Origin: Candidatus Gastranaerophilales bacterium
GTDB lineage: Bacteria > Cyanobacteriota > Vampirovibrionia > Gastranaerophilales > Gastranaerophilaceae
Assembly: GCA_944325945.1 (NCBI GenBank)
Contig: CALVBW010000027.1
Location: forward strand, 1 to 64,000
Direction of reading: 5' to 3'
Length of the DNA stretch: 64,000 bases
Shown: positions 10,713 through 58,283 of the stretch, piece by piece
Layout: every line of letters begins with the position of its first letter
How positions within the stretch are numbered: position 1 is the stretch's first letter
Notes under the pieces: generated by a model
What the model saw: only the letters and a program-made list of their open reading frames with translations
Told to the model about the DNA's origin: nothing
The model's database searches: none
Program-made: the position numbers and the translations under genes

Positions 10713-11438
10713 ATGGCTAAAAACGCGTTTACTCTGGCAGAAGTGTTAATAACATTAGGAATTATTGGTGTTGTGGCAGCATTAACTATACCTGCTTTGA
10801 TATCCAAATATGATGAAAAGGTTATGCTAAATAAACTTAAACGTTCTTATTCGGAAATACTAAACGCAATAGATTTAAGAAGAGCTGAATCCGGCTCAGG
10901 CGGTTATGCACAGTTATTTAATCCTTCTATGACGGAAGCTGAACAATTAGACGGTATTTTAAAATATTTAAAAGTTATAGAACGCTGTTCTGCATCGGAT
11001 TCAAAAGGCTGCGGAGGAAAATATAAAGTATATCCTAAAAACAGATCTAATGACGGTTACGGAAATGTAGCCACAAGCTCACAAGGCGGTGAACGGGCAA
11101 TTTTAAGTGACGGAACTCTTGTCCGTATCTCGAAAAAAAACTGGACAGGGAACTGCCAAACTACTTATACTAACAGATATGAAACAGATGAAAATGGAAA
11201 TTATACAAATTTAGTGGATGGAAAGCCTGTTCCTTCTCAGCCGTTCCAGGTAACGCAATGTGCAGAAATATTTTTTGATACAAATGGACCTAAAGGCAGA
11301 AATCAATATGGTTACGACATGTATGGTATAGTTGTTACTCCGACAGAACTTACGCAACAGACATATTATGGCGGATTGTATGATACAATGCGCACAGGAA
11401 AACTCTCTTATGAAAAATATTCTGAAGGCACATATTAA
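10713..11438 (+). CDS. Type IV prepilin-like protein 1
   Basis: Prepilin-type protein of 241 residues. After a four-residue leader MAKNA comes FTLAEVLITLGIIGVVAALT, the class-III signal that prepilin peptidase cleaves before Phe, with Glu at +5. A helical stalk follows, then a globular region with Cys pairs and the segment FFDTNGPKGRNQYGYD, which matches the D.NG...PN..G.D motif of the other prepilins in this window. The ATG at 10713 is chosen since it gives a normal leader with GGAAGG upstream; the frame extends 11 codons further. Pseudopilin or minor pilin role is likely. Transcribed alone from a strong promoter. Confidence 0.85.
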   Translation: MAKNAFTLAEVLITLGIIGVVAALTIPALISKYDEKVMLNKLKRSYSEILNAIDLRRAESGSGGYAQLFNPSMTEAEQLDGILKYLKVIERCSASDSKGCGGKYKVYPKNRSNDGYGNVATSSQGGERAILSDGTLVRISKKNWTGNCQTTYTNRYETDENGNYTNLVDGKPVPSQPFQVTQCAEIFFDTNGPKGRNQYGYDMYGIVVTPTELTQQTYYGGLYDTMRTGKLSYEKYSEGTY

Positions 11439-43011: not shown

Positions 43012-43674
43012 TTAATAATCCATTTTCCAACCGTCCAACATGATTTTATCAAAACATGCGCCACGGTATCCGGCTTGGTCAGCCCAAGCCTCACAGGACC
43101 AATCTTCGTTACCAACATTATAAGAATTACCCACCACGCCATCGGAATAAATATCAAAATTAAATAAATCTCTACCATTAGTATTTGGACCTGCTTTACC
43201 ATTCAAATCAAATACAAGACGAATATAACCATGGTAAATATATCCATCATCTGCATCAACATCAGATACACAAACAGGAAAACCATAAGAAAGTTTAAGA
43301 CATCTTGTATCATCACTAAACATTGCATCAATTGCAACACTTTCCGAACCGTCCAACGAACTGTATGAAGCCCCGAAGCATTCAGCCGGCGTACACTCAT
43401 CACTAACTTTTAAATATTTTTTTAGAAATGAAATAGCACCGTCAATATCTTCATAGGCATATGTATAATCTAAAGTATCAACTCTTTCATCAGCCAATGC
43501 AGCCACAGCCGCATTAGATACATCATTATAAAGTTTCTGCATTTGTGTAATTCTTACTTTTGTCTGATGGTTCGTAAGCACTGTAGGTATGGTCATTGCA
43601 GAAATTACACCGATTATACCAAGTGTTATTAAGACTTCTGCCAAAGTGAATCCGAATTTAAAAGTTTTTTTCAT
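43012..43674 (-). CDS. Type IV prepilin-like protein 2
   Basis: 220-residue prepilin-type protein with a normal eight-residue leader MKKTFKFG, then FTLAEVLITLGIIGVISAMT. The globular part has paired Cys, and VFDLNGKAGPNTNGRDLFNF fits the D.NG...PN..G.D.F motif shared by the four prepilins here. GAGGGAGAA upstream is the ribosome site. Unlike genes 3 and 4 it has no homopolymer tract or repeat in the leader. Own terminator; monocistronic. Confidence 0.88.
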   Translation of the reverse strand: MKKTFKFGFTLAEVLITLGIIGVISAMTIPTVLTNHQTKVRITQMQKLYNDVSNAAVAALADERVDTLDYTYAYEDIDGAISFLKKYLKVSDECTPAECFGASYSSLDGSESVAIDAMFSDDTRCLKLSYGFPVCVSDVDADDGYIYHGYIRLVFDLNGKAGPNTNGRDLFNFDIYSDGVVGNSYNVGNEDWSCEAWADQAGYRGACFDKIMLDGWKMDY

Positions 43675-49895: not shown

Positions 49896-51001
49896 ATGTT
49901 GAAAAAGGTTGTACAAAAAGCGGTTCAGATAGTCGCCCCCCCCCGAAATTAGCTCAGAGCTTAGGATTTAAGGGTTTTAAGCTTACATGTCATCCTGAGG
50001 TGCCTGAGGCACGACAACATATTAGGTTTTTGTGTAACTTTACAGGTCATCCTGAAATGTTAGCCGCAGGATCTCAAAAAGTTAATGAGATGCTGAAACA
50101 AGTTCAGCATGACAGAAATACCTTCCCTCGCCCCTTGGGGAGAGGGATAAAGGGAGAGGGGCAAGGCTGTGACAAAACCGTGAGCGAAGCTCACAGAAAA
50201 TTCTTAGTGCCTTACTGTCTTAGTAACTTAGTATCTTCTAAAAAAGCCGCGTTTACCCTTGCTGAGGTCTTAATAACCCTCGGCATAATCGGAATTGTGG
50301 CTGCTATGACAATCCCGACGCTTATTTCTAAATATCAGGAAAAAACCTATATAACCAAATTGAAAAGGGCATACTCAATGCTTGCACAGGCATATAAGTT
50401 TGTTGAGCTTGAATATGGCAGTCCTAAGACATGGAATCTTCAAAAATGGGAATCCGAAGAAGATGCGGAGGGTAATACACAAATTACATCCTCTGGTTCT
50501 ACCGATATGGTTATCAGCAGATTTGCCAAATATATGAAAACGAGCAAAATTTGTGAAGCCGCAGATAAAGATTGTATGGAAGAAATTGATTATCTGCGTT
50601 TGTCAGGTGTATCTGACGATCAACATTTTCGCGGCGGCAGATTTGGCACAATGATTTTAAGTGATGGCACTATAATATATAATTATGTTAATAGAGACAA
50701 TTGCACGACTAATGAATATGGAACATCTTACTGTGCTCATTTTTATGTTGATCTAAACGGGCAAACAGCCCCGAATAAGCGCGGGCTCGATTTTTTTGAG
50801 TTTATTATGACTGATAACGGGATTATACCAAACGGGTTGAAAGGTACTACCTCTGAGGTAGGGTCTTTTGAACGCACTTGTAATAATGAGGGTTCAGGTG
50901 ATGGCTGTACTGCTTGGGTTTTGACCTTTAATAATATGGATTATCTCCATTGTGATGGCTTATCCTGGGATGGTGCGCACTCCTGCAAGGACGCAAAATA
51001 A
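49896..51001 (+). CDS. Type IV prepilin-like protein 3, frame broken at a 9-C tract
   Basis: ATG 49896 has AAGGAG seven bases upstream and reads MLKKVVQKAVQIVAPP, then stops at a TAG because the C-run at 49936-49944 has nine bases. With ten, the frame continues open through a long leader into SKKAAFTLAEVLITLGIIGI and a pilin body of about 250 residues ending LSWDGAHSCKDAK. The open frame without its start runs from about 49946. The leader (about 119 residues before Phe) contains a 267-base in-frame mosaic of dispersed repeats. YVDLNGQTAPNKRGLDFFEF is the shared pilin motif. Either phase-OFF, a pseudogene, or a homopolymer miscount. Confidence 0.8.
49936..49944. repeat. Nine-C homopolymer in prepilin 3 leader
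   Basis: GTCG, nine C, GAAA. Frame arithmetic: one extra C joins ATG 49896 to the pilin frame. Confidence 0.9.
50087..50114. repeat. GTCATnCTGA hairpin repeat copy in prepilin 3 leader
   Basis: Same element as 20418-20444 in ileS on the other strand; encodes EMLKQVQHD here and EILKRVQND in ileS. The G:C pair in the stem replaces T:A of the ileS copy. Confidence 0.8.
50204..50235. repeat. 8-bp tandem repeat in prepilin 3 leader
   Basis: TTAGTGCC, TTACTGTC, TTAGTAAC, TTAGTATC; complementary to the array at 41776-41813. Confidence 0.8.
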
Positions 51002-57317: not shown

Positions 57318-57381
57318 AGTTTTTCTCCTATTTATTTAAACTAAATTAAACGACTATACAAGGTATAATAGCACAAAAAAA
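57315..57381 (-). repeat. Direct repeat A: ppdK promoter/leader region
   Basis: From the ATG back about 67 bases; includes GGAGAAAA and ATTATACCTTGTATAGTCG. Nearly identical (about five differences) to copy B at 58216-58283, same orientation. Confidence 0.85.
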
Positions 57382-57427: not shown

Positions 57428-58218
57428 TTATTTTTCTATAGCACCGCCAACAATATAATTAATATTATCATAATACAATCTGTTATTTTGAATTACATAT
57501 TCTAAATAGCCCTCAAACGAACCAAGACCGCAACCGATAGTATTTTCATAAATCCTTACTTTAAAAATATCTCTACCAACCTGATTAGGAAGTTTTACTC
57601 CATTTGTATCAATTACGACTTCAGCGCAATAGGTCGCAATTTTTTCAACTGTAATCGGATTTTTATTTTCATCTAACGCAATATCACCATTTTCATCCGT
57701 TACCAAATTACTAACAGTACGCCTGCATGAATTATATTGTGTCACCTGAAGCAAAATACCATCAATAGACAAAAATCTGGGGTTATTTCCTATATAACCA
57801 CCCAAGTAAGTTTCTCCGTCTGTCGAATATGCCTTTGCTAATTTATAAGAATAAGTCCCGCCGCATTTTCCGTCATTTGCGCTACAGAATTCCTGAACTT
57901 TATAAAATTTAGATAAATCTTCCGCAGTCTCAAGACTTGTATTGGAAGGATTAAATATTGCAGTATTATTGCCATAACCTTTTTCGGCACGAGCAAGTCC
58001 TACTGCGTTTGTCAGCTGAGCATAAGCCTTTTTAGCACTCTGGACAAGCACTCTTTCCTGATAATTCGATATCAATGTCGGAATTGTCATTGCTACGACA
58101 ACACCTATGATGCCGAGTGTAATTAGAACTTCTGCCAGAGTAAATGCCCTAAAACCCTTGCTATGTCTACTTAGAAGGGTCGCCCCCCCCCGACATACCG
58201 TAAAGCTTTACTTTTCAT
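57428..58218 (-). CDS. Type IV prepilin-like protein 4, frame broken at a 9-G tract
   Basis: ATG 58218 has GGAG nine bases upstream and reads MKSKALRYVGGG, then RPF and a stop, because the G-run (58183-58191 on the plus strand as C) has nine bases. With ten it reads GGGATLLSRHSKGFRAFTLA and on through EVLITLGIIGVVVAMTIPTL into a pilin of about 240 residues ending NYIVGGAIEK. Leader then has 25 residues before Phe. VIDTNGVKLPNQVGRDIFKV is the shared motif. The leader and start region are a copy of the ppdK leader, so expression may follow ppdK's promoter. Phase-OFF, pseudogene or miscounted homopolymer. Confidence 0.8.
58183..58191. repeat. Nine-C/G homopolymer in prepilin 4 leader
   Basis: On the gene strand GTC, nine G, CGACC. 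One more G restores the frame to the pilin. Confidence 0.9.
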
Positions 58219-58283
58219 AATTTTTTCTCCTATTTATTGAACTAAATTAAACGACTATACAAGGTATAATAACACAAAAAAAT
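58216..58283 (-). repeat. Direct repeat B: copy of the ppdK promoter/leader before prepilin 4
   Basis: See copy A at 57315-57381. The match begins at the start codon and stops sharply about 65 bases upstream. Confidence 0.85.

Follow-up and report, generated by a model that had tools for sequence, protein, structure and literature searches.

A nine-base G run in a type IV pilin-like leader as a candidate phase-variation switch in Candidatus Gastranaerophilales

How is a pilin made from a gene whose start codon and pilin frame are one base out of register? The question is raised by a minus-strand gene in the window (the whole 64,000-nucleotide stretch of DNA analysed here), in which a run of nine G separates the start codon from the pilin part.

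The prepilin genes of the window

The preliminary description had correctly located ATG 58218, its ribosome-binding site and the nine G. The gene has the following features, of which the start codon, ribosome-binding site, tract and short frame were read from the sequence.

58216..58218, minus strand: start codon, with GGAG upstream
58227..58230, minus strand: ribosome-binding site GGAG
58183..58191, minus strand: G9 tract (C9 on the plus strand), which sets the frame
58171..58218, minus strand: short open frame at G9, MKSKALRYVGGGRPF-stop; paralogues have the same outcome
57428..58147, minus strand: pilin part, AFTLAEVLITLG..., 239 residues including A, open back to the tract
57428-57430, minus strand: stop codon of the pilin part
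58219..58282, minus strand: region upstream of the gene, 95% identical over 64 bp to 57318-57381

At G9, the frame from the ATG ends after 15 codons. As predicted earlier, a tenth base would place 25 leader residues ahead of FTLAEVLITLG; the leader would read MKSKALRYVGGGATLLSRHSKGFRA, and the prepilin motif is visible in the gene's own sequence. From the tract to the cleavage site, the pilin frame has no ATG, GTG or TTG, so an internal start cannot rescue the gene. The match of the upstream region listed above lies 5' of the adjoining pyruvate phosphate dikinase-like gene; it looks as though the pilin gene had taken over a copied housekeeping promoter.

Three in-frame paralogues (L296, L133 and L056) scored above the cut-offs of PF07963 (N_methyl) and TIGR02532, and the NCBIfam matches were to GspG/ComGE-type pilins. 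An AlphaFold2 model of the pilin (mean pLDDT of 83.6, but only 51-53 across the first 20 residues) has a 53-residue N-terminal helix (residues 4-56), followed by strands and a beta-rich domain. A Foldseek search of this model against the PDB found nothing at E<=0.001. Since the globular domains of pilins are highly divergent, resemblance to a solved pilin is not a strict requirement. The motif, the profile matches and the predicted fold support identification of the product as a type IV pilin-like protein.

A second prepilin gene in the window also carries a tract, and two others served as comparators.

49896..49898, plus strand: start codon of the second tract-bearing prepilin (C-type leader), read from the sequence
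49936..49944, plus strand: C9 tract, core GTCGC9GA, in opposite orientation to its gene, read from the sequence
50249..51001, plus strand: pilin part of the second gene, AFTLAEVLITLG...
10725..11420 (end approximate), plus strand: comparator prepilin without a tract, short leader MAKN-AFTLAEV
43041..43653 (end approximate), minus strand: comparator prepilin without a tract, leader MKKTFKF-GFTLAEV

As had been noted, the second gene has the same tract at the same length and is likewise one base short. G or C runs of at least 7 occur only twice in the 64-kb window, both times in a prepilin leader. At 36.7% G+C, about 0.03 G9/C9 runs would be expected in 64 kb and two are present. The tracts had also been called independent, and this was wrong: they have a common 15-bp core, GTCGC9GA, which lies on one chromosomal strand in both cases and is oriented opposite to their genes, and they belong to a family with 38 exact copies of a 14-bp core.

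Prepilin leaders are also lengthened, to up to about 200 residues with the frame kept, by dispersed repeats (e.g., LRYYGTKALRSN, HVILNLFQDL and KQVQHD). Such stretched leaders are seen at 49970-50248 of the window and at L003, L004, L021, L030 and L059, and their repeats resemble in-frame palindromic elements elsewhere.

A tract family under selection in the pilin frame

The window's genome (1.63 Mb, 32 contigs) holds the 38 exact copies of the 14-bp core TCGCCCCCCCCCGA and eight more with one mismatch, and nearly every exact copy lies where a prepilin-like gene begins. When the genome was searched with variable run length, 38 sites were found, 36 with nine bases, one with ten and one reading G8A. 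Nearly all sites follow one plan: a ribosome-binding site, an ATG, about 9 to 13 codons and the run of a prepilin-like gene. In total, 82 prepilin-like genes were found in the genome, and 52 tract-bearing ones were analysed. This scale (tens of loci, 82 prepilins), the membership of one dispersed family and the out-of-frame bias described below were all absent from the preliminary description. A gapped-pattern scan of contigs returned mostly GC-rich chance matches, no G9 or G10 copies of the element were found in viral contigs, and an Rfam search of the leaders gave no match.

The core is common to the G-type leader (MRNKEFKNV-GGG...) and the C-type leader (MLKKVVQKAVQIVAPPP...), in which it is reversed relative to the gene. 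A third leader type, MGANTHHDYFSL..., has G10-11. The GANTH, KNADY and PKW types have a different core, yet the run and the one-base shortfall are kept. Around the tract, TCG...CGA is invariant, third-codon base included. In G-type loci the run is followed (e.g., 58172-58190) by CGAC-YCYYC, with a pyrimidine in every case, degenerate codon positions included, and this segment could pair with the run across a loop of GCGA. In three genomes, an A separates the G run from CGACT (G8A in L057 and L114; G10A in L099 and L145); such an interruption should make the switch less slippery.

Eleven genomes of the genus supplied 124 tract-bearing prepilin loci, at which the frames were compared over 8,542 codons from the run to the pilin motif; this stretch often contains an insert, up to about 200 codons long, that is built from dispersed repeats. 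The pilin frame contained 6 stops and the other two frames 719 and 892, and 119 of the 124 loci had no stop at all in the pilin frame. These loci share repeats and are not independent, but the contrast between frames is still extreme. At most 13 of the 124 were in frame with the upstream start, versus 41 expected at one third (p=3e-9, loci treated as independent), and two of the 13 (L105 and L109) are interrupted by early stops and are not intact.

The usual run length is 9 and the in-frame length 10 in the G-type, C-type and PKW leaders and in several single leader types; among G-type loci 52 of 64 have nine bases, and among C-type loci 23 of 29. The GANTH type usually has 11 and the KNADY type 12, one base from 10 and from 11, respectively. 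In-frame loci mostly have length 10, which is in frame at 8 loci. One of them, L296, is a near-twin of the gene at 58218 in the same genome, with the same leader plan, G10, MKNIKFESIGGGATLLSRNSKGFRAFTLAEV and an intact 269-residue prepilin. Another, L056, is in frame at G10 with the start MQRKVMANI, and L009 and L158 are in frame at length 9 through other changes.

The dN/dS ratio was 0-0.29 in nine orthologue pairs, including 0.14-0.24 in four pairs with length 9 in which neither species has the gene in frame. The pair L138/L153, in frame in both, differs by 12 synonymous changes and no others. These comparisons show that the pilin frame is under selection as far upstream as the tract. Since the dN/dS values and stop counts show that these are not pseudogenes, the upstream start must sometimes join the pilin frame.

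Tract length and its possible explanations

Tract lengths range from 7 to 13. Over 520 bp, L070, in the window's genome, and L099, in genome G012 of another species, differ only at the run, which is G9 in the former and G10A in the latter; L136/L145 show the same change. Of the orthologues L030 and L134, the first has G9 and is out of frame, whereas the second has G10 and is in frame, and genome G013 has nearly identical leaders with runs of G10, G12 or G13. In genus g10 (genome G173), the lengths at 12 loci are 10-13 and 4 of the 12 are in frame, as free switching would predict. The preliminary description had proposed looking for such tracts in relatives and would have counted their absence against its reading; they are present in homologous prepilins across the genus and the family. 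G runs of at least 9 occur in 126 of 146 genomes of the family, and other genera carry tracts in pilin leaders and in glycan genes. Two non-pilin genes of genome G113 (genus g57) have internal poly-G/C runs of 11 and are both out of frame: L290, an RfbG-like dehydratase by our reading of its sequence (NVIGGGDFACDRLVPD) with G11 in mid-gene, and L291. Both are likely phase-variable surface-glycan genes.

We favor, at a probability of about 0.68, a reading of the G9/C9 run as a switch for translational phase variation that sits in a type IV pilin-like leader and is operated by replication slippage. Slippage would alter the run length; at 10 (or 7 or 13) the start codon would read through into the prepilin, and at 9 translation would stop within a few codons. 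With a repertoire of tens of pilin genes, nearly all one base from ON, few pilins would be expressed per cell at a time, and their identity would drift by slippage and selection. We infer that slippage is the cause, that cells switch reversibly and that the benefit is a diversified surface. The locus resembles a simple-sequence-repeat phase-variable gene in that the length of a homopolymer within the coding frame decides whether the product is full length and the frame beyond it is kept open by selection. Run length also differs between near-identical copies (L070/L099, L136/L145 and the G013 leaders), as it does in such genes. The phase-variation design offered in the preliminary description is well supported by related loci, whereas the homopolymer error offered beside it is not.

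Several observations count against a switch. Free slippage should yield a range of lengths, but the loci are strikingly uniform at 9, and the cleanest change (G9 to G10A in L070/L099) adds two bases and does not turn the gene ON. MutS1 and MutL are present in the genome, so slippage should be damped. Loss of mismatch repair was considered as a cause and was rejected, as both proteins are encoded.

The uniformity can also be read as programmed slippage, the main rival, in which a fixed-length G9/C9 run would give constant low pilin output through slippage of RNA polymerase or -1 frameshifting by ribosomes, with the DNA unchanged. Length 9 and the one-base shortfall are conserved across species and in several unrelated leader types, the flanks are invariant to the third-codon base, the G-type run can pair with the always-pyrimidine segment, and purifying selection acts even on genes that neither species has in frame. 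However, RNA-level slippage is strand specific, and both G and C are used on the coding strand, which fits a DNA-level event. The shortfalls are unequal (+1 at 9, -1 at 11 and 12), some loci are plainly in frame at 10, and length differs between orthologous and identical copies. The hairpin overlaps the run rather than lying downstream, and C-type leaders lack it. A search for a downstream stimulatory structure conserved in all members found the hairpin in G-type loci only; no compensatory pairs were seen in it, the G being constant. We therefore regard programmed slippage as unlikely. Slightly less probable again is its specific form, in which the nine-base run would be a recoding site giving a constant low trickle of every pilin and the length-10 alleles would be locked-on variants.

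It is highly improbable that the run is mainly a nucleic-acid element, such as a site of leader recombination or gene conversion or a 5' regulator, with a secondary effect on frame. Conservation of the core at the nucleotide level in both orientations would suit this, as would the different leaders possible on orthologous pilins. A further case comes from genome G025, of another genus, where a conserved leader of about 160 nt with the short frame MQKLSIERIS-G11-GATD-stop precedes about 15 pilin genes (L119-L130) that have their own ribosome-binding site and ATG, with a conserved CCGTG...CACGG hairpin between leader and gene. Because its run (11-12 in G025; 13 in genome G085, with a wider search pattern) lies in a separate upstream short frame and the pilin has its own start, that run cannot set the pilin frame directly. 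In the window's genus, however, the shortest loci have no other pilin start, so that frame matters, and the GANTH, KNADY and PKW types retain the run and the shortfall with differing cores.

Very little probability attaches to an assembly or base-calling error, in which true runs of 10 were all called as 9. Homopolymers are error prone and the same base is missing at nearly all loci, but lengths of 7, 8 and 10-13 were resolved in the same kinds of assembly, a single genome contains G9, G10 and G11 runs, independent genomes of the genus agree on length 9, in-frame G10 copies occur in the window's own genome, and L009 and L158 are in frame at 9. The slightest chance is that these are dead genes, a duplicated family of frameshifted pilin pseudogenes: the majority of copies are out of frame and L105, L106 and L109 also have stops, but the pilin frame has 6 stops where about 805 would be expected, intact in-frame members exist, and neither dN/dS near 1 (nine pairs) nor random pilin-frame stops (124 loci) were seen.

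Replication slippage at a frame-setting run, the reading that we prefer, explains everything but the tight hold on length 9. Shorter runs are documented to slip less in C. jejuni (PMC4965091); the same tendency would help to explain that hold, and, consistent with it, types at 10 or more vary more here than types at 9. In addition, recombination may homogenise the copies, given that third-codon bases next to the run do not vary. In a genome of 1.6 Mb, about 80 genes encode prepilins and most of those examined rest one base from ON, a large natural set for asking why length 9 is so tightly held. If the switch is real, standard gene callers would miss or truncate tract-bearing pilin genes, and metagenome reads would directly reveal which pilins are ON in each host.

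Comparison with known systems

Poly-G phase variation is textbook knowledge in pathogens, and our literature search found no report of it in a Gastranaerophilales-like lineage. In Neisseria, pilC has poly-G in its signal-peptide region, PilC being a pilus-associated adhesin and not a pilin, and the opa genes form a many-locus repertoire that switches independently through CTCTT repeats. As in both of these, a slip-prone repeat in the leader would control a surface protein here, although pilC and opa comprise few loci each.

The poly-G/C contingency loci of Campylobacter jejuni become less stable with length and depend hardly at all on flanking sequence (PMC4965091). Both organisms have an AT-rich genome and many genes with frame-setting G/C runs (8-12 in C. 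jejuni). In C. jejuni these are mostly separate surface-modification genes in a mix of ON and OFF states, whereas here they form one paralogous pilin family that is about 90% out of frame.

By analogy, the closest demonstrated case is the sortase pilus of Bifidobacterium breve, a gut commensal in which replication slippage at a G tract is the switch and the gene is likewise out of frame in the reference (Penno et al. 2022, PMC9187656). There, G11 slips more than G10, a minority of cells are ON, and the mouse gut shows enrichment of the in-frame lengths (PMC9187656). In both systems, the G tract is intragenic and early in a pilus gene, and a one-base change joins the frames. The B. breve genes encode Gram-positive sortase pili in two clusters, whereas those described here are type IV pilin-like genes at tens of loci with both G and C runs; switching in B. 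breve was seen by deep sequencing (PMC9187656), and the present system is known from assembled sequence.
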